Positions 49,799 to 62,721 of a DNA stretch of 64,000 bases are shown here, in pieces. Source of the stretch: Solidesulfovibrio carbinoliphilus subsp. oakridgensis (lineage in GTDB: Bacteria > Desulfobacterota > Desulfovibrionia > Desulfovibrionales > Desulfovibrionaceae); assembly GCF_000177215.2 (NCBI RefSeq), contig NZ_CM001368.1, positions 3,417,625 to 3,481,624 of the forward strand, read 5' to 3'. Under the pieces are notes generated by a model. The model did not search any database. It had not been told where the DNA came from and was given only the letters and a program-made list of their open reading frames with translations. The position numbers were made by a program, and so were the translations under genes. Each line of letters starts with the position of its first letter. Within the stretch, counting starts at the first letter, position 1.

Positions 49799-50125
49799 GA
49801 CGGCTCCGGCGGCGGGAATCAGGGGGGCGAGCCTTCCCCTTCGCCGCTTCCATACAACGATAGTCCGGCCGATGCCCCGGGTCAAGGCGGCGCTCCCGTT
49901 CCGTGGCCGGTCGGCTTTGCGCCGCTTGCCATTTCCGGGCAAAGGGGCATTGTGACATTGTGCCGGCCCAAGGAGCCTGCGCAGCGGCGGGAACGCCGCA
50001 GGCCGAGGCGTCACGCGTTTTCCGTGGCCCCGTCACCGAACCGTAACGGGCCAAACCTACCTTCCGCCCGTGACCAGGGACATTTCGCGCCAATCATGGC
50101 GCGACAACCATTGAGGAGGGTTTCC
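49799..50125. other. Divergent intergenic region between rpe and pstS
   Basis: A 327-base non-coding region. The rpe-proximal part holds no motif I can name. The pstS-proximal part holds a pair of direct repeats resembling a Pho box (50030-50047) and the pstS ribosome site GAGGAGGG. No open frame with a credible start was accepted here. Confidence 0.5.
50030..50047 (+). promoter_or_regulatory. Candidate Pho box upstream of pstS
   Basis: Two direct repeats, CCGTCAC (50030-50036) and CCGTAAC (50041-50047), start 11 bases apart, the spacing of PhoB-binding repeats (E. coli consensus CTGTCAT). They lie 79 bases before the pstS start. Two repeats in GC-rich DNA could occur by chance. Confidence 0.4.
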
Positions 50126-50929
50126 GTGAAAAAACTGATTGGCATCGTAGCCGCGTGTCTCATGATCGCTTCCACCGCCTTTGCCGACACCACCATCAAG
50201 GTCGACGGTTCCACCACCGTGCTGCCCATCATGCAGAAAGTGGTCGAGGCCTATATGAAGGCCCACCCGGATGTGAAGATTTCCGTGTCCGGCGGCGGCT
50301 CGGGCAACGGCATCAAGTCGCTCATCGACGGCGCCACCGACATCGCCATGGCCTCGCGCGCCATGGAGCAGAAGGAAATCGACCTGGCCAAGACCAAAAA
50401 CGTCAACCCCAACCAGATCGTCTGCGCCATCGACGCCATCGTGCCCGTCGTCAATCCGGGCAACAAGCTGGCCGAGATCACCACCGCCCAGCTCAAGGAC
50501 CTCTACACGGGCAAGATCACCAGCTGGAAGGATCTTGGCGGCGAGGGTCCGGTGGTCGTCATTTCCCGCGACACCTCGTCGGGCACCTACGAGACCTGGG
50601 AAGGTCTGGTCATGAAAAAGGAACGCGTCTTCCCGGGCGCGCTGATGCAGGCCTCGAGCGGCGCGGTGGTCCAGGCCGTCAGCAAGAACAAGAACGCCAT
50701 CGGCTACGTGGGCATCGGCTACCTCGACGCCTCCACCAAGGGCCTCAAGGTCGACGGCATCGAAGCCACTGCGGAAAACGCCAAGTCCAAGAAGTACCCC
50801 GTCTCCCGCGACCTGTACCTCTACACCAACGGCGCCCCCTCCGGCGCGGCCAAGGGCCTGGTCGACTTCCTGCTCGGCGCCGAAGGCCAGAAGCTGGTCA
50901 AGGAAGCCGGTTTCGTTCCCCTCAACTAG
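50126..50929 (+). CDS. pstS: Phosphate ABC transporter substrate-binding protein
   Basis: Periplasmic phosphate receptor of the Pst high-affinity transporter. The 267-residue protein has a signal peptide (KLIGIVAACLMIASTAFADT, cut near AFA) and the PstS phosphate-binding pieces: DGSTTVLPIMQKVVEAY, SGGGSGNGIKSLIDG, ASRAMEQKE, SRDTSSGTYETWEG and SSGAVVQAVSKNKNAIGYVG. It is of the compact PstS type common outside enterics. GTG 50126 is the start, five bases after GAGGAGGG. A hairpin separates it from pstC, which would allow more PstS than permease. A candidate Pho box lies upstream. Confidence 0.95.
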   Translation: MKKLIGIVAACLMIASTAFADTTIKVDGSTTVLPIMQKVVEAYMKAHPDVKISVSGGGSGNGIKSLIDGATDIAMASRAMEQKEIDLAKTKNVNPNQIVCAIDAIVPVVNPGNKLAEITTAQLKDLYTGKITSWKDLGGEGPVVVISRDTSSGTYETWEGLVMKKERVFPGALMQASSGAVVQAVSKNKNAIGYVGIGYLDASTKGLKVDGIEATAENAKSKKYPVSRDLYLYTNGAPSGAAKGLVDFLLGAEGQKLVKEAGFVPLN

Positions 50930-50950
50930 CCTGCCCGAAAACGCCCGCAA

Positions 50951-50985
50951 CGCGTCCCGGCCCGCCCGCGCGGCGTCGGGACGCG
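50951..50985 (+). terminator. Intercistronic hairpin between pstS and pstC
   Basis: Perfect 9-bp stem CGCGTCCCG (50951-50959) / CGGGACGCG (50977-50985), loop 17 bases, no U-tract. Placed to stabilise the pstS message or weaken read-through into pstC. Confidence 0.5.
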
Positions 50986-51001
50986 CCGCTTGGAGACGCC
51001 C

Positions 51002-51895
51002 ATGGCCCTTTCGCGCAAGACCAAGGACCGCCTGATCCAAAACGCCTTTTTCCTGACCGCCCTGTCGTCCATCGTGGCCCTGGCGCTGATCATGATCTAC
51101 CTCTTTGCGGAGGGGCTGCCGATCTTCAAGGACGTCTCGGTCCTGGACTTCCTGTTCGGCAACCTGTGGTATCCCACCTCCGATCCGCCGGAATTCGGCA
51201 TTTTCCCCCTGATCGTGGCCTCGCTGTCGGTCACGCTGGTCTCCTCGGCCATCGCCATCCCGCTTGGCGTCATGACCGCCATCTACCTGGCCGAGATCGC
51301 CAGCCGCAAGACCCGCGACATTTTCAAGCCCATCGTCGAGCTGCTGGCCGCCCTGCCGTCGGTGGTCATCGGCTTTTTCGGCATGGTGGTGGTGGCGCCG
51401 TTTCTCCAGGAGACCTTCGACCTGGCAACAGGCCTCAACCTTTTCAACGCCTCCATCATGCTGGCCTTCATGTCCGTGCCGACCATCTGCTCCGTGTCCG
51501 AGGACGCCATCTACGCCGTGCCCCGGGAGCTCAAGGAAGCCTCCCTGGCCCTGGGGGCCACGCACTTCGAGACCATCACCAAGGTGGTGCTGCCGGCGTC
51601 CTTGTCCGGCATCTCCACGGCCGTCATGCTCGGCATGTCCCGGGCCATCGGCGAGACCATGGTCGTCCTCATGGTGGCCGGCGGCGCGGCCATCATCCCG
51701 ACCTCGATTTTTTCCGCGGTCCGGCCCATGCCGTCGAGCATCGCGGCGGAGATGGCCGAGGCGTCCTTCCGCGGCGACCACTACCGGGCCCTCTTCGCCA
51801 TCGGCATCGTGCTGTTTCTTTTCACCCTGGTCTTCAACCTCGTGGCCAGCCACGTGTCCGAAAAGCACAAGCAGGTCGGCGCGGCCACGCTGTAG
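51002..51895 (+). CDS. pstC: Phosphate ABC transporter permease PstC
   Basis: A 297-residue inner-membrane permease with six helices. Typical features: LFAEGLPIFKDVSVLDFLFG, WYPTSDPPEFGIFPLIVASL, the conserved FKPIVELLAALPSVVIGFFG, and the ATPase-contact EAA loop with ELKEASLALGATHFETI and MSRAIGETMVVLM. ATG 51002 follows GGAG by six bases; an upstream TTG at 50990 is unlikely. pstA follows 17 bases after the stop. Confidence 0.95.
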   Translation: MALSRKTKDRLIQNAFFLTALSSIVALALIMIYLFAEGLPIFKDVSVLDFLFGNLWYPTSDPPEFGIFPLIVASLSVTLVSSAIAIPLGVMTAIYLAEIASRKTRDIFKPIVELLAALPSVVIGFFGMVVVAPFLQETFDLATGLNLFNASIMLAFMSVPTICSVSEDAIYAVPRELKEASLALGATHFETITKVVLPASLSGISTAVMLGMSRAIGETMVVLMVAGGAAIIPTSIFSAVRPMPSSIAAEMAEASFRGDHYRALFAIGIVLFLFTLVFNLVASHVSEKHKQVGAATL

Positions 51896-51912
51896 CCGCC
51901 AAGGAACTCCCC

Positions 51913-52791
51913 ATGAACGCCACCGCCGTCGCCCGCCAAAGCCTGGCCCGCCGCCACCGCACCCAGAAGATCATGTGGGGCGTCTTCGGCCTGTCGTCGC
52001 TCGTCAACATGGCAGCCCTGCTCCTTATCTGCGGCTTTCTGCTCATAAAAGGCCTGCCCGCCATCTCCTGGAGCTTTCTGACCGAGATGCCGCGCGACTC
52101 CATGACCGCCGGCGGCATCCTGCCCTGCATCCTCGGCACCATCTACTTGAGCCTCGGCACCATGGCCGTGGCCTTTCCCCTCGGCGTGGCCTCGGCCGTC
52201 TACTTAAACGAATACGCCACCCCGGGCCGGACCCTGCGGCTCATCCGCCTTGGCATCAACAATCTGGCCGGCGTGCCGTCGGTGGTCTTCGGCCTTTTCG
52301 GCCTGGCGTTTTTCGTCACCTTCTTTGGCCTGGGCGTCAGCCTCCTCTCCGGCATCCTGACCCTTTCGATCCTGGTCCTGCCGGTCATCATCGGCACGGC
52401 CGAAGAGGCGCTCAAAGCCGTGCCCCAGACCTACCGCGAGGCCTCGCTCGGCCTTGGGGCCACCAAGTGGCAGACCATCCGGCTGGTGGTCCTGCCGGCG
52501 GCCATGCCGGGCATGCTGACCGGGGCCATCCTCGGCCTGTCCCGGGTGGCCGGCGAGACCGCGGCCATCATGTTCACGGCGGCCGTCTTTTTCACGCCCT
52601 ACCTCCCGACCAACCTGACCGACTCGGTCATGGCCCTGCCGTACCACATCTACGTCCTGGCCACGGCCGGCACGGACATCGACAAGACCCGGCCCCTCCA
52701 GTACGGCACGGCCCTGGTGCTCATCGTCCTGGTCCTCGGCATGAACCTCGGAGCCATCCTCTACCGGGCCAAGCTGCAAAAAAAGCGCTAG
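51913..52791 (+). CDS. pstA: Phosphate ABC transporter permease PstA
   Basis: A 292-residue partner permease, again with six helices. Conserved parts include GGILPCILGTIYLSLGTMAV, INNLAGVPSVVFGLFGLAFF and the EAA loop TYREASLGLGATKWQTIRLV followed by LSRVAGETAAIMFTAA. AAGGAAC precedes ATG 51913. The ATPase gene pstB and phoU, normally next, are not here: a terminator-like hairpin follows at once. The ATPase must be supplied from another locus. Confidence 0.95.
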   Translation: MNATAVARQSLARRHRTQKIMWGVFGLSSLVNMAALLLICGFLLIKGLPAISWSFLTEMPRDSMTAGGILPCILGTIYLSLGTMAVAFPLGVASAVYLNEYATPGRTLRLIRLGINNLAGVPSVVFGLFGLAFFVTFFGLGVSLLSGILTLSILVLPVIIGTAEEALKAVPQTYREASLGLGATKWQTIRLVVLPAAMPGMLTGAILGLSRVAGETAAIMFTAAVFFTPYLPTNLTDSVMALPYHIYVLATAGTDIDKTRPLQYGTALVLIVLVLGMNLGAILYRAKLQKKR

Positions 52792-53716: not shown

Positions 53717-54922
53717 ATGACCGAGGGAGAGAGCCAGGGCCGCAAGAACTATGTGCTCGACACCAACGTGCTGATCGAAAACCCGCAAAGCGTGCTGAAG
53801 CTTCGAAACGGCGTGGAAAACGCCATCCACATCCCGGGCCATGTGCTCATGGAGCTCGACGGACTCAAAAAAACGACCAAGCTGCGCCATATCGTGGCCA
53901 ACGTCATCCAGACCCTGACCGAGAACCGCGACCACATCCACTTCATCCAGAACGCCAAAAGCCGCTCCGAGCTGACCGACAGCATCGACAACCGCATCCT
54001 GGACGAGATCGAAGCCTCCACCATCGACGACCCCATCCTCGTGACCAACGACCGGATCCTGCAGCTGCGGGCCGGGCTGCGCGGCATCAAAAGCGAGGAA
54101 CTGCGGGACTCCCGGCCGTTCGAATCGGAATCCCAGCGCTACACCGGGTTTGCCGAGGACGACGGCGAGATCGTGCCCAACTGCTTCACCTGGCGCGACG
54201 GCAAGCCCGTGCTCCACGCCCCGGACGGCGAGAAGGTCATCAACTACACCTGCGATGTCTGGAACGTCCGGCCTCGGACCGTGTACCAGAACCTGGCCCT
54301 CGAACTCATCATGGCCCCGCACGTCGACCTGGTCTCCATCCAGAGCGAGGCCGGCTACGGCAAGACCTTCCTGGCCCTGGCCGCCGCCCTGTTCGCGGTG
54401 CAGGAGAAAAAGCAGTACGACAAGATCGTGGTCTTGAAACCCACCATCGAGATCGGGGCCAAGATGGGCTACCTGCCGGGCGACGTGTCCGAGAAGATGG
54501 AACCGTACATGAAGTACGTCTTTGACCTCCTCGTCAAGCTCCACCGGTCGCGGGCGGCCAACAAGGTCTTCCTGAACCCCAACGACGAGATGTTGCGCAT
54601 AAACCCCAAGAAGTTCGAGATCCTGCCGCTGGCCTTCGTGCGCGGCATGAACATCGAGAACGCCTTCGTGGTCATCGACGAGGCCCAGAACCTGTCGCGC
54701 ACCGAAGTCCGGGCCGTGCTGACCCGCATGGGCGAAGGGGTCAAGTGCGTGGTCCTTGGCGACACCTCCCAGGTGGACAACCCCTATCTCAACGAAGCCA
54801 ACAACGGCCTCAACTGGATCGTGCGGAAGTTCAAGGGATTTGCCAACTACGCCCACATCGTGCTCAAGGGCGAGCGGTCGCGCGGCCCCATCACGGACAT
54901 GGTCCTGCGCTCCAAGCTCTAA
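53717..54922 (+). CDS. PIN-PhoH ATPase (PhoH2-like)
   Basis: A 401-residue protein with an N-terminal PIN nuclease domain (YVLDTNVLIENP, Asp15; ILDEIEAS; ILVTNDRILQLRA) and a C-terminal RecA-like PhoH ATPase (QSEAGYGKTFLA with Lys216, AFVVIDEAQNLSRTEV, VVLGDTSQVDNPYL). This PIN-PhoH arrangement is known as PhoH2 and is linked to RNA unwinding and cleavage. ATG 53717 is selected, with GGGAGGCAGGC upstream. Despite its historical name, phosphate control is not proven for this family. An AT-rich double-hairpin element follows three bases after the stop, then a terminator-like hairpin. Confidence 0.92.
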   Translation: MTEGESQGRKNYVLDTNVLIENPQSVLKLRNGVENAIHIPGHVLMELDGLKKTTKLRHIVANVIQTLTENRDHIHFIQNAKSRSELTDSIDNRILDEIEASTIDDPILVTNDRILQLRAGLRGIKSEELRDSRPFESESQRYTGFAEDDGEIVPNCFTWRDGKPVLHAPDGEKVINYTCDVWNVRPRTVYQNLALELIMAPHVDLVSIQSEAGYGKTFLALAAALFAVQEKKQYDKIVVLKPTIEIGAKMGYLPGDVSEKMEPYMKYVFDLLVKLHRSRAANKVFLNPNDEMLRINPKKFEILPLAFVRGMNIENAFVVIDEAQNLSRTEVRAVLTRMGEGVKCVVLGDTSQVDNPYLNEANNGLNWIVRKFKGFANYAHIVLKGERSRGPITDMVLRSKL

Positions 54923-55319: not shown

Positions 55320-58535
<3,216 letters not shown>

Positions 58536-58698
58536 GCCTTTCCCGCCTGGAGGGGGGCGGCCGGCCCGGCGCTTTTCTCCGGGAAAAGCCCGCCCGCCCC
58601 TTTGCCATCAAACCGTAAATCATCTAGTCTACAATAGGCGCGAAACACGCGTGGGCCTGCGCTTGCAATCCGGGTCCGCACGCAAGGAGAACGCCACC

Positions 58699-59328
58699 AT
58701 GTCCGGATCACGCAAACGGAAGTTCGAGTTGGTGCTGCCCCGGGTCGAGGCCCTGGCCACCCTGGCCGGGCTGACCGCCCAGGCCGCGGCCGGCAATCTC
58801 GTCATCGGCGGCGAAGTCGTGCCGCTTGACGATTTCATGAGCCTTAAAATCGGCATCAAACACCTCGGCGCCTCGTCCATGCTGAAGGTCCGGCTCAAGT
58901 ACCCGGCCGTGGGTCTCGACGCCCTGCCGACCCCGGCCGGCGTGGACAGGGAGGACGCGGCCCGGGAGGCGGCCCTGGCCGCCGCGCCCGAAGCCGTTGC
59001 CGCCGATGCCGGGGGGGGCGGAGCCGTGGAGCCCGAGGGCCGGCCCCGATACAAGGGCCTCAAAAAGCGGATGAAGCATTTTTTCAAGGCCCTGGTCGTG
59101 TCGCTGCGGGCCGGGCAGGCCCCGGACCGGGACGTGGTGGCCGCGTTTATTGCCGACAGCCGGCTCATGACGTCTTTCCCCGGCAAGGGCGACGCCTTCT
59201 ATCCGGCCTACGACGCCGAGGTGGACCGGCTGGAGGAAGCCGCGGCCGCCGGCGACATCGCGGCCATGACGGCCTCGGTCGCGGCCCTTGACCGCATGAA
59301 AAAGGAGTGTCACAGCCGCCATGCCTGA
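58699..59328 (+). CDS. XXXCH-type protein: amphi-Trp-like head, cytochrome c'-like tail
   Basis: A 209-residue protein without signal peptide. Residues 5-75 (FELVLPRVEALATLAGLTAQ, GNLVIGGEVVPLDD, SSMLKVRLKYP) follow the amphi-Trp pattern seen in the small protein at 60686. The C-terminal half (from about residue 120) resembles the four-helix cytochrome c': FIADSRLMTSFPG, a helix rich in Ala/Glu, and the final AALDRMKKECHSRHA. There the haem motif CxxCH is reduced to xxxCH (Cys204, His205). I recall this as the 'XXXCH' family, placed by curators in a 'GAK system'; function is unknown. AAGGAG precedes ATG 58699. The stop overlaps the next start by eight bases, and that gene's ribosome site AAGGAG lies in the KEC codons. 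Confidence 0.75.
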   Translation: MSGSRKRKFELVLPRVEALATLAGLTAQAAAGNLVIGGEVVPLDDFMSLKIGIKHLGASSMLKVRLKYPAVGLDALPTPAGVDREDAAREAALAAAPEAVAADAGGGGAVEPEGRPRYKGLKKRMKHFFKALVVSLRAGQAPDRDVVAAFIADSRLMTSFPGKGDAFYPAYDAEVDRLEEAAAAGDIAAMTASVAALDRMKKECHSRHA

Positions 59329-60514
59329 TTCCAGCCATGCCCCGGCCGGCCTCGCCGGTCCGGCCGGACCGGAGGAGGCCCGCTGCGTGGAGATCGACCT
59401 CTCCCGGGTGGACCCGGCCGTCACCGAGGAGGACGAGGCGGCCTTCGCCCGCATAAACGACGTCACCCTGACCCCGCAGCAGGCGGCGCGCATCGCCAAT
59501 CCGGTCCGCACCTATCCGCGCCAGGAATACGTCCTGGCCGCCCACTGGCACCCCGAACACGTGCCCATGGAGCTTTTAAAGGAACGCATCGCCAAGCTCT
59601 ATCCCAACCGGATCGACGAGCTCATCATCCCCACCCAGCACAACATGCTCCTGGAGTACGACGGCTACCAGGGCGTGGAGGTGGACTGCTATTCGAGCGG
59701 GTTCAACCGCAAGGTGCAGCTCCTGCTCCACTTCAAGGGCCTCGATCGGGACCGGGCCGAGGTCCTGGCCTCCATGCTGCGCCACACCCACCGCTACCGG
59801 GCCTCCCAGCTTTTCGAGTACCTGGACGCCCTGGCCGAGCCGGCCGGGGAGGAAAGGCGCCAGCTGGCGGCCGGCCGCAGCAACGCCGAAGAGGAGCTGG
59901 TCGCCTTCGTGCGCATCCAGGCCGCCAAGCTCAAAGCGCTCATCCTGGCCCACGAGGCGACCCTCCCCGAGGACACCTACAAGAACAAGCTCGTGCGCAA
60001 CTTCCTCGACACCCTGCGCCCCCGCTTTGGCGACCGGCTGGTCAACAAGGCGCAGGTCTACGCCAGGGCCGTCAAGGAGCTGGTCAAGGAGGCCTTTTCG
60101 CTCTCCTACTTCTACCGGGCGACCGAGGTGATCGAGGAGGCCCGGTCCCTGGGGGCCGGCATCGTCATCCCCCACCCGGAGCAGTTCTGGCCGATTCTTC
60201 TGGCCGATTACGACGTGGACGGCATCGAGGTCTGGAACCCCCAGTCCCAGCAGTACACGGAATTTTTGATCAACGTGGTCAACCGCCGCAACCGCATGGG
60301 CTGGCACGGCGAGCGCCCCATCCTCATCTTCATGGGCGACGACTGCCACATGAGCGAAAAGACCCGGGACCCGGCCGAGCAGGACCCGGAAAAGGCGGCC
60401 CGGGAAATCGGGCTCCAGCCGGCCTGGCACGACTTCGCCATCAGAAAGAGCCTGATCATAAACGGGGTCAGCCGGCGCAAGATCATCGCCGAATACCGGT
60501 CCCGGCTGGGATAG
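59321..60514 (+). CDS. PHP-like metal-binding protein of the XXXCH cluster
   Basis: A 397-residue cytoplasmic protein. Metal-binding motifs appear in PHP-fold order: AAHWHPEHVP (His75, His77, His80), IIPTQHNMLL (His107), GIVIPHPEQFWP (His285), DVDGIEVWNPQ, and FMGDDCHMSEKT (Asp341, His343). PHP enzymes hydrolyse phosphoesters with three metals, so a phosphatase or phosphodiesterase is plausible. Between residues 125 and 270 lies a long helical insert (SMLRHTHRYRASQLFEYLDA, VNKAQVYARAVKELVKEAF) not typical of small PHP proteins. It overlaps the XXXCH gene by eight bases and is followed by a variant repeat and the amphi-Trp gene. Assignment is from motif order only. Confidence 0.6.
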   Translation: MPDSSHAPAGLAGPAGPEEARCVEIDLSRVDPAVTEEDEAAFARINDVTLTPQQAARIANPVRTYPRQEYVLAAHWHPEHVPMELLKERIAKLYPNRIDELIIPTQHNMLLEYDGYQGVEVDCYSSGFNRKVQLLLHFKGLDRDRAEVLASMLRHTHRYRASQLFEYLDALAEPAGEERRQLAAGRSNAEEELVAFVRIQAAKLKALILAHEATLPEDTYKNKLVRNFLDTLRPRFGDRLVNKAQVYARAVKELVKEAFSLSYFYRATEVIEEARSLGAGIVIPHPEQFWPILLADYDVDGIEVWNPQSQQYTEFLINVVNRRNRMGWHGERPILIFMGDDCHMSEKTRDPAEQDPEKAAREIGLQPAWHDFAIRKSLIINGVSRRKIIAEYRSRLG

Positions 60515-60570
60515 GCACGCGCGACGGCAGGGTCGGACGACCAGCGGCGGTGGCGGCAGGGGAAAAGGGG

Positions 60571-60614
60571 AAGCCTCCGGCGGCCAAAGGGCTTGGCCCT
60601 TTGGAAACCCTTTG
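60571..60614 (+). repeat. Composite intergenic repeat, copy 9 (variant)
   Basis: AAGCCTCCGGCGGCC followed by a 9-bp hairpin, CCAAAGGGC (60584-60592) / GCCCTTTGG (60596-60604), then AAACCC. It shares the head of the other copies but has an AAAGGG hairpin in place of AGGAGAGG and no GGGGATCATCCCC core. It lies 56 bases after the PHP-like gene. Confidence 0.7.
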
Positions 60615-60685
60615 AAATTTCAGGCAAGAAGCTGCAGGTTCTTTCGAGGGCCGGCCCCGCCGCTGTGACGACAAGGGAGAGACGC

Positions 60686-60970
60686 GTGGAAAAGGAATCC
60701 CGGTTCAAATACGAGTCCGTCCAGGACGCCGAGACGCTCAGGCGCTACCTGGAGACGGTCACCGCCGGCTTTGCCGCCGGCGAACTCCGGTTCGCCAGCC
60801 GCGAGGGCGAGGTGACGCTCCACCCCAAGGGCATGCTCGGGTTTCTCATTGAGGCCAAGTCCATGGGCGGGCGCATGAAGCTCCACTTGAAATTTTCCTG
60901 GCGCGAGGACGGCGCGGCCGAGGAGGGCGACGCGGGCCTCGTCATCGACGCCGGCGAGTCCTCCTCCTGA
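60686..60970 (+). CDS. Amphi-Trp domain protein
   Basis: A 94-residue protein read from GTG 60686, with AAGGGAGAG upstream. It matches what I know as the amphi-Trp domain: KFKYESVQD-like opening (RFKYESVQDAETLRRYLETV), GFAAGELRFASREGEVTLHP, GMLGFLIEAKSMGGRMKLHL, and KFSW with the conserved Trp. The alternating hydrophobic strands make amphipathic beta structure. Function is unknown; it is found near XXXCH, ATP-grasp and kinase genes in sulfate reducers. It lies between the PHP-like gene and the PhoU-kinase gene, supporting one functional unit. The tail is acidic. Confidence 0.8.
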   Translation: MEKESRFKYESVQDAETLRRYLETVTAGFAAGELRFASREGEVTLHPKGMLGFLIEAKSMGGRMKLHLKFSWREDGAAEEGDAGLVIDAGESSS

Positions 60971-61086
60971 GGCCGTCTCCTCGGGCGACGGGCCGCCCGG
61001 TCAAGGCGGCGGCCAGGGCGTAAGCACATGGCCTCGGGACTTCCCGGCACGGGGTCCGGAGGCGCGACACGGGCCGGGGAGGCGCC

Positions 61087-62721
61087 ATGCGCATATTGGA
61101 AGGGATCGAGGAAAATTTCCGGTTCATGGTCCTTGAGGTGTCCAAGCAGGTGGCCAGCGCCCTTTTGGCGGTCGAACGGCCGGACCCGGACCGCATAAAG
61201 CGCATCGAGAGCCGCGACGACTACATCGACAACCTGAAAAGCGTCATCGAGAACGCCTGCTGGGGCCGCATCCACGACTCCCGCGACACCAACAAGCGCA
61301 CCCTTGACCTGGTGCGGGCCGCCAACATCATCAACATCAACCTGGAGCGGATCGCGGACTACGCGGTTAACATCGTCTCCCAGGTCCAGTACCTGACCGA
61401 CCCGGCCTTCATCCGCCGCTACGACTACCGCGACCCGTTCGTGGACGTGGACAAGGCCCTGGGGCTGGTCTTTCCGGCCTTGACCCGCCAGGACGTGCGC
61501 CTGGCCCTGCGCATCTGCCGGGCGGAATTCTCCCTGGACGACCGGTTCAAGGCCGCCTTCGACGCCATCCTGGCCGATCTGCGGCGCGGCGAGTCCCCGG
61601 AAAACGCCATCTCCTGCTTCAACATCTTCCGCTATCTGGAGCGGATGGGCGACGCCCTGCTCAACATCGGCGAGGCCGTCATTTTCGCGGCCCTCGGCGA
61701 GAAGCTGAAAATCCACCAGTACCAGGCCCTGCAGGATTCGCTTGGTCAGGGCGAGGACGGGGCCCCGCTTGCCGCCGGGGAGTTCAGCTCCATCTGGGGC
61801 ACCCGGTCGGGCTGCCGCATCGGCCGGCTCGAGGAGCACGGGCCCCGGTCCAAGGGCGTGCTCTTCAAGGAAGGGACGGCCGCCAAGCTGGCCAAGGAAA
61901 AGGAGAACATCGAGCGGTGGCAGCGCCTGTCCCCGGGGCTCCCGCCGGCCATCCAGGCCTTCCAGACCGACGGCGACTCGGCTTCCATGCTGCTGGAATA
62001 TCTCGGCGGCTGCAATCTCCAGGAAGTGGTCCTGACGGCCGACCGGGAGATCGTGGAAAACGCCTGCTTCCTGGTCACCCAGACCGTGGGCGGCATCTGG
62101 GAGCAGACGCTCTCGCGCCGGCCGGTGCCGGCGGACTTCATGGGCCAGATGCGTTCCCGCCTGGAGGACGTCTTCCGGCTCTATCCCGGGTTCGCCCGGG
62201 GGCCCAAGCGGCTCGGCGAGGTGGCCATCGCCTCGGTGCCCGAGCTTTTGGCCTCGGCCACGGATGCCGAAGCCGGATTGGCCGCGCCCTTTTCCGTGTT
62301 CCTGCACGGCGATTTCAACCTCAACAACGTCGTCTACGACCACACGGCCCAGCGCATCCACTACATCGACCTCAACCGCTCGGCCGAGGGCGACTACGTC
62401 CAGGACACGGCCGTGTTCCTGGCTTCCAACTTCCGGCTGCCGGTCTTTGAAGCGCGCCTTCGCGGCCGCATCGAACTGGCCATGGCCCGGTTTTTGGAAT
62501 TCGCCCGGTCCTTTGCCGCCGAGCAGAATGATGCCCAGTTCGAGGCCCGGCTCACCTTCGGCGTGGCCCGGGCCCTCGCCACCTCGGCCCGGTTCGAGAT
62601 GCACCGGGACTTTGCCCAGGAACTGTTCCTGCGCGGCGTCTACCTGCTGGAACGGGCCACGGCCCATGCCGGGCGGCCCTGGGAGGACCTGGCCTTTCCG
62701 GACGCGGTCCTCCTGTATTAG
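61087..62721 (+). CDS. PhoU domain fused to aminoglycoside-phosphotransferase-like kinase
   Basis: A 544-residue cytoplasmic fusion. Residues 1-215 are a PhoU domain (RFMVLEVSKQVASALLAVER, DLVRAANIININLERIADYA, SPENAISCFNIFRYLERMGD), PhoU being a metal-binding helical bundle that links phosphate transport to signalling. Residues about 235-520 are an APH-type kinase: GVLFKEGTAAKLAKEKENIE (ATP-side Lys region), VFLHGDFNLNNVVYD with catalytic Asp409 and Asn414, and IHYIDLNRSAEGDY with metal-binding Asp428. Such kinases phosphorylate small molecules or proteins. Fusion to PhoU is uncommon. ATG 61087 has a weak GGGGAGGCGCC site. The cluster with XXXCH, PHP-like and amphi-Trp genes suggests a common task. 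Confidence 0.8.
   Translation: MRILEGIEENFRFMVLEVSKQVASALLAVERPDPDRIKRIESRDDYIDNLKSVIENACWGRIHDSRDTNKRTLDLVRAANIININLERIADYAVNIVSQVQYLTDPAFIRRYDYRDPFVDVDKALGLVFPALTRQDVRLALRICRAEFSLDDRFKAAFDAILADLRRGESPENAISCFNIFRYLERMGDALLNIGEAVIFAALGEKLKIHQYQALQDSLGQGEDGAPLAAGEFSSIWGTRSGCRIGRLEEHGPRSKGVLFKEGTAAKLAKEKENIERWQRLSPGLPPAIQAFQTDGDSASMLLEYLGGCNLQEVVLTADREIVENACFLVTQTVGGIWEQTLSRRPVPADFMGQMRSRLEDVFRLYPGFARGPKRLGEVAIASVPELLASATDAEAGLAAPFSVFLHGDFNLNNVVYDHTAQRIHYIDLNRSAEGDYVQDTAVFLASNFRLPVFEARLRGRIELAMARFLEFARSFAAEQNDAQFEARLTFGVARALATSARFEMHRDFAQELFLRGVYLLERATAHAGRPWEDLAFPDAVLLY

Follow-up and report, generated by a model that had tools for sequence, protein, structure and literature searches.

We analysed a 64,000-nucleotide stretch of the Solidesulfovibrio carbinoliphilus subsp. 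oakridgensis genome (contig NZ_CM001368.1, positions 3,417,625 to 3,481,624), hereafter the window, which carries four genes belonging to the GAK system, a set of protein families named in NCBIfam. A sequence-only reading had described four consecutive plus-strand genes, two of them overlapping, and had attached the label 'GAK system'; the arrangement is borne out by gene calls, families and folds, and the label is correct according to NCBIfam matches. The four genes and the Pho-box-like site that precedes them are listed below in window coordinates.

58602-58619, plus strand: Pho-box-like tandem repeat, two 7-nucleotide half-sites with an 11-nucleotide period, score 18.3; the XXXCH start lies 97 nucleotides downstream
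58699-59328, plus strand: XXXCH gene, 209 amino acids; predicted amphi-Trp-like head and cytochrome c'-like four-helix bundle, with an invariant Cys-His at the end
59321-60514, plus strand: PHP-like gene, 397 amino acids from ATG; predicted PHP-fold metal-dependent phosphoesterase
60686-60970, plus strand: amphi-Trp gene (type A), GTG start, 94 amino acids
61087-62721, plus strand: PhoU::APH kinase fusion, 544 amino acids; HGDxNxNN and Asp-x-x-Arg motif kept

The XXXCH and PHP-like genes share an 8-nucleotide overlap, and a later PHP-like start at 59387 is favoured by our own codon-bias gene caller, which was used for all gene calls; since this caller misses or shortens some genes, amphi-Trp genes most, absences read from its calls are weak. 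The XXXCH protein matches NCBIfam TIGR04358 above the curated cut-off (E 2e-31, residues 118-207), and in the family alignment the terminal Cys-His is invariant in 27/27 homologues, with six columns invariant overall. An AlphaFold2 model built from the 27 aligned proteins (predicted local distance difference test score, pLDDT, 84) comprises a beta-alpha-beta4 head followed by a four-helix bundle. The amphi-Trp protein matches TIGR04354 above its cut-off (E 2e-18) and scores just below the cut-off for Pfam PF20068 (24.9 against 27). Profile comparison with hhalign aligns the XXXCH head to the amphi-Trp profile over 66 columns (probability 85%, E 6e-6), confirming the common amphipathic pattern proposed from the letters alone. 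Used as a profile against solved structures, the amphi-Trp alignment gave nothing usable.

The best solved matches to the XXXCH bundle are cytochromes c' (E 0.012, probability 1.00, none below 0.001), and this predicted fold, together with the invariant Cys-His, could indicate a true haem protein and a redox-linked system. We consider this very improbable: the fold match is weak, the haem motif CxxCH is replaced by xxxCH in all 27 aligned proteins, and the N-terminus has no hydrophobic stretch or signal sequence as judged by eye, with no signal-peptide program run. Furthermore, our gene caller detects an XXXCH gene at only 74/106 distinct loci (109 loci were collected, including three duplicates across collections, and neighbour counts use the 106 distinct ones), and the larger neighbour clusters listed include, as judged by eye, no electron-transfer gene.

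The PHP-like protein has no NCBIfam match at E 1, no meaningful Pfam match and no match to a PHP family model, and a search of solved structures with its alignment profile returned nothing usable. Its putative metal-ligand residues (HxH at 75 and 77, H107, E120, H155, H285 and DxH at 341 and 343) are invariant in 28/28 homologues, and its AlphaFold2 model (28 sequences, pLDDT 88.8) matches the PHP phosphoesterase BAD_1165 (3o0f, E 7e-6; 3e0f, E 1e-5). These are the sole matches below 0.001, with a template modelling score of about 0.5 by target and a long helical insertion in the model. By metal motifs and modelled fold, the protein is a predicted PHP-fold phosphoesterase. The fusion protein combines PhoU (PF01895, E 9e-22) and APH (PF01636, E 5e-7) domains according to Pfam, and lies below the cut-off of the PhoU equivalog TIGR02135 (77 against 130.25 bits). 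It shares with the PhoU/Pst signalling complex the PhoU domain, a pst neighbourhood and Pho-box-like sites, but differs in that PhoU is fused to a kinase and in that a distinct phoU gene lies next to pstB in this genome. An aminoglycoside resistance gene was considered and rejected, the APH resistance model scoring 28 bits, far below its cut-off of 205. Likewise, a defence system was rejected after the seven proteins tested with PADLOC gave no hit.

The four genes do belong together, as the sequence-only reading held, but they are not a stand-alone four-gene system: they are half of a conserved operon of about eight genes, in the usual order XXXCH, PHP, amphi-Trp A, PhoU::APH, ATP-grasp, HprK-B, CofD-like and amphi-Trp B. 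At 76 PHP loci in the class, XXXCH lies upstream in 74 and PhoU::APH downstream in 75, so the co-occurrence on which that reading depended holds. The ATP-grasp, HprK-like and CofD-like neighbours that it proposed to look for are found downstream of most PHP loci (ATP-grasp at 64, HprK-B at 59 and CofD-like at 54 or more, the last being a minimum); the 12 loci without a downstream ATP-grasp all fall in two genera, g4 and the genus of the window (g1). PHP, full-length PhoU::APH and ATP-grasp above its cut-off occur in the identical 73 of 149 genomes of the class, a count that leaves out 16 matches confined to PhoU (E 4e-13 at best), the PhoU part of three hits that were split, the N-terminal pieces of four split PHP genes and ATP-grasp matches below the cut-off; PhoU::APH rises to 79/149 when PhoU-only matches at E 1e-10 are counted. 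Among the same genomes XXXCH is found in 89, HprK-B in 69, amphi-Trp in 86 and CofD-like above its cut-off in 133, the overlaps of the last between genomes not being interpretable. PHP and PhoU::APH are two core members of the GAK system that NCBIfam does not name.

In most carriers the GAK members stand side by side in one operon, whereas in the source genome the set is divided among three places. Apart from the window, a second cluster (C1:1237502-1241376) holds an amphi-Trp gene, a second PhoU::APH, ATP-grasp and HprK-B, and a third place (C1:738361-740693) holds a second HprK-B and the CofD-like gene, after pstB-phoU. The genome encodes one ATP-grasp, two HprK-B and one CofD-like protein, all above curated cut-offs, and four amphi-Trp proteins. 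All five NCBIfam members (TIGR04354 amphi-Trp, TIGR04355 HprK-B, TIGR04356 ATP-grasp, TIGR04357 CofD-like and TIGR04358 XXXCH) are present; what departs from the NCBIfam description is the addition of PHP and PhoU::APH, the split operon and the Pho-box-like site. Downstream of the second cluster (L066:9888-13795), on the same strand, lie kdpABC/D-like potassium uptake genes, named by eye. The CofD-like protein (L068:18492-19703 in the source genome) is also present in many genomes of the class that lack PHP and PhoU::APH, and probably serves a core function that GAK has recruited.

Among the best 80 of 209 wider relatives, those closest among the named ones carry the labels Solidesulfovibrio or Desulfovibrio sp. 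(L129-L135, 80-87% identity), and further copies lie on contigs labelled Desulfobacteraceae, Desulfarculus, Phycisphaerae, Atribacteria, Nitrospinota and Nitrospirae. The proposed setting in sulfate reducers is therefore too narrow if the last four labels are right, mis-binning being possible because these are metagenome-assembled genomes or uncultured records. As called by our gene caller, several of the wider copies carry PHP, PhoU::APH, ATP-grasp and HprK-B without XXXCH or CofD-like.

Relatives of individual GAK proteins also occur in other contexts. A short XXXCH paralogue of 95-96 amino acids without the amphi-Trp head is present in the window's genome (L065:9862-10152) and in two distant genomes (L125:5413-5700 and L126:5673-5960), flanked by a gene resembling NAD-dependent sugar-nucleotide epimerases and by parA, with parB nearby; XXXCH may perhaps have a role outside GAK at a chromosome partition locus. 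A lone amphi-Trp gene (L067:9193-10155 in the window's genome) directly follows an SGNH-hydrolase-like gene (by eye), away from other GAK genes, and the type-B amphi-Trp protein at L109:3235-4065 has a tail in which His and Cys are highly abundant and which resembles a metal-binding sequence. Near GAK operons, a protein of about 147 amino acids that resembles, by eye, an arsenate reductase or low-molecular-weight phosphatase is encoded within 5 kb in 15 loci (including L124, L164 and L179). Radical-SAM-like proteins of about 400 amino acids (by eye, CxxxCxxC) recur near GAK or near a PHP::glycosyltransferase gene (L068:11446-12645, L090, L117, L159 and L200). The latter encodes, in the window's genome, an 823-amino-acid PHP::GT4 protein in which a GT4 glycosyltransferase domain accompanies an N-terminal part that looks PHP-like by eye (L068:12737-15208), relatives of which adjoin the GAK operon in 14/106 distinct loci.

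The link to phosphate suggested by the sequence-only reading proved right, given an enrichment of Pho-box-like sites and copies that adjoin pst or phoU. A first scan with the strict E. coli Pho-box consensus (score at least 12) gave sites before 30/115 operon starts compared with 57/449 control genes of the same loci. In a second scan, on the coding strand, with half-sites allowing TGT[CA]A, a score of at least 16 and a period of 11, sites preceded 35/87 non-redundant GAK operon starts, compared with 23/425 non-redundant control genes, matched to the starts in source and GC content (0.529 versus 0.526), and 85/4350 dinucleotide shuffles of the starts. The opposite strand gave 8/87 and other periods 2-8/87, and 28 of the 35 sites sit 77-129 nucleotides before the start. 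Genes for pstS, phoU or pstC with pstA are found in 14/106 distinct PHP loci and PhoH in 13/106, both counts being minima because the loci differ in length. Phosphate (Pho) control of the GAK operon is well supported in silico.

Within the window, pstS-pstC-pstA (50126-52791) lie 6 kb 5' of the four-gene cluster on the same strand, and the region upstream of the cluster contains the following features.

50030-50047, plus strand: Pho-box-like site before pstS, score 19.3
50126-50929, plus strand: pstS (Pfam)
51002-51895, plus strand: pstC (Pfam)
51913-52791, plus strand: pstA, assigned by position and similarity only
53717-54922, plus strand: PIN-PhoH protein, a context gene
55320-58535, plus strand: hybrid histidine kinase, directly 5' of the cluster; a link to the GAK system is putative

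The pstB start of the source genome (L068) also has a Pho-box-like site (score 20.3), and the scan found none upstream of the histidine kinase and none scoring at least 16 before the lone amphi-Trp genes or PhoH.

Carriage of the system was compared with that of polyphosphate kinase (PPK). PPK1 occurs in 29/149 genomes of the class and PPK2 in 14/149, all 14 of which also have PPK1. Neither is present in any of the 73 GAK carriers, the source genome included, where chance would have placed PPK1 in 14.2 (P 1e-10). Counted by genus, the 22 genera with carriers and the 5 with PPK1, out of 38, do not overlap (P 0.009). One of the carriers is D. gigas (G035), which has no PPK1 or PPK2 match and in which the GAK operon follows pstB-phoU (L121). 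The granules of this species were reportedly identified in 1996 as alpha-glucose pentakis(diphosphate), a report that our literature search did not confirm, and we know of no genes for this compound. With respect to published descriptions, passages in two papers call the D. gigas granules polyphosphate, large and single (PMC5134017, citing Jones and Chambers 1975) and mention a polyphosphate pellet from this organism (PMC9239181). In D. alaskensis G20, which is not an established GAK carrier, phosphorus granules are lost under phosphate limitation (PMC5193443); the main text of that paper mentions no ATP-grasp, HprK, PHP, CofD or XXXCH.

The tails of the type-B amphi-Trp proteins provide a further point of comparison with granule proteins. 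At least 50% Lys+Ala+Pro is reached in 17/43 distinct tails compared with 3/699 background C-terminal 50-mers, the background being matched in source and not in length. AlgP, which has KPAA repeats, is located on polyphosphate granules, and the tail of PhaF, also a granule protein, is homologous to it (PMC9239181). The likeness of the type-B tails to AlgP and PhaF is one of composition and not of homology, and the head domain is, by what is known, unrelated.

Taken together, the operon, its co-occurrence, the families and predicted folds, the enrichment of Pho-box-like sites, the partial pst linkage and the absence of PPK from carriers of the class lead us to favour, tentatively, the explanation that GAK is a conserved, Pho-controlled cytoplasmic phosphorus-storage system that takes the place of polyphosphate kinase. 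GAK would share phosphorus storage and links to pst and phoU with the PPK1 and PPK2 systems, to which it has no sequence relation. We infer the storage role, PhoB binding, each catalytic step and the product. PhoB would raise GAK expression together with Pst, and the PhoU part of the fusion would sense phosphate or the state of Pst and steer the attached kinase. This kinase, HprK-B and ATP-grasp would build a heavily phosphorylated small molecule, the phosphorus store replacing linear polyphosphate, from which the PHP enzyme would free phosphate. The store would be coated or positioned by the amphi-Trp and XXXCH proteins, which in some species would do so by means of Lys/Ala/Pro-rich tails resembling the AlgP and PhaF tails, and potassium, given the kdp genes beside the second cluster, could be the counter-ion of the store. 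The large phosphorus granules of D. gigas would then consist of this product. A more specific form of this proposal is doubtful: that GAK both synthesises and stores a non-polyphosphate reserve, that the D. gigas product is glucose pentakis(diphosphate), itself unconfirmed in the literature searched, and that amphi-Trp is a phasin-like granule coat.

Several observations weigh against this explanation. The exclusion between PPK1 and GAK in the class is confounded by descent, because 24/29 PPK1 genomes belong to a single genus (g3), and 47/149 genomes have neither GAK nor PPK1. Mutual exclusion of PHP and PPK1 was also tested at the phylum level and not found: of 317 genomes, 23 carry PHP and 34 show a PPK1 match, with an overlap of 3 against 2.5 expected. 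The three overlapping genomes are all from one family (f87), where the PHP matches are at their weakest, and in one of these genomes PPK1 is represented only by fragments below the cut-off; after removal of the four carriers of this family the overlap is 0/19 (P 0.13). With regard to the tails, 13/43 carry a net charge of at least +5 and 15/43 are acidic, with a net charge of -5 or less, and the four amphi-Trp proteins of the source genome have no Lys/Ala/Pro-rich tails. As for Pho control, the site weights were loosened after the first scan had been seen, other periods also shift mildly in score (P 0.05 to 2e-8), no site scoring at least 16 precedes the second GAK cluster (L066, coding strand), D. 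gigas has a site before pstB (16.1) and none before XXXCH, and most GAK loci have no pst or phoU neighbour.

The relationships of the downstream enzymes are likewise unfavourable. ATP-grasp is closest to the amide ligases MptN, RimK and LysX and not to phosphate kinases, HprK-B has its nearest relatives in the protein-phosphorylating HPr kinases, and the CofD-like protein is nearest to YvcK/UPF0052, the latter two being regulator-like. Because of these resemblances the main rival explanation is a phosphate-responsive signalling or protein-modification circuit, in which HprK-B and PhoU::APH would phosphorylate the amphi-Trp and XXXCH proteins, ATP-grasp would ligate amino acids to them and PHP would reverse the phosphorylation; the modified proteins, with the YvcK-like CofD, would act on transport (Pst, Kdp) or metabolism. 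The several small proteins per genome, four of them amphi-Trp in the source genome, and the GAK cluster beside kdp fit such a circuit, and the Pho-box-like sites fit it equally well. The likeness of the enzymes has limits. The GAK ATP-grasp shares the fold and most of the catalytic region with RimK, LysX and MptN but forms its own family (TIGR04356, 424 bits, versus 132 bits for MptN), and reads Glu-Val-Ser at the position of the Glu-x-Asn motif of RimK. HprK-B is very distant from HPr kinase, with a match limited to about 50-60 residues. In the carbon control of Firmicutes the HPr kinase and YvcK genes neighbour each other, as do their GAK counterparts, but no HPr-like protein was recognised in the GAK operon. 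Against the circuit, the amphi-Trp C-terminal ends are unconserved in the alignment, unlike those expected of a ligase or kinase target, the substrates of APH relatives are mostly small molecules, and the absence of PPK from carriers of the class is left unexplained. The modification system put forward in the sequence-only reading is retained as one of two main explanations, a possible one that we hold to be less probable than storage.

A third explanation is phosphate-starvation biosynthesis of an envelope component that spares phosphate, or of a phosphometabolite resembling a cofactor, which would not be a store. The MptN-like ATP-grasp, whose relative modifies small cofactors, and the PHP::GT4 protein beside some operons agree with this, as does the replacement of phospholipids by glycolipids in G20 under phosphate limitation (PMC5193443). 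However, the largest neighbour clusters listed include no lipid or glycan enzyme common to most copies, and a phosphate-rich product would be a better fit for a phosphoesterase accompanied by three enzymes of kinase or ligase type, so that we regard this explanation as unlikely.

Within the open-licence PubMed Central literature we found no paper on the GAK system, including amphi-Trp, XXXCH, the HprK-related kinase and CofD-like, and the NCBIfam entries examined give no function for its families. Neither NCBIfam nor the literature searched names the two added core members, a Pho-box-like site, the split arrangement or a storage role. Through two core enzymes, a Pho-box-like site and a granule-forming bacterium without recognisable PPK, orphan GAK families become a testable pathway. 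A storage role could explain phosphorus granules in PPK-less sulfate reducers, organisms that matter for phosphorus cycling in sediments, and, if true, would mean that bacteria have another way of storing phosphorus.

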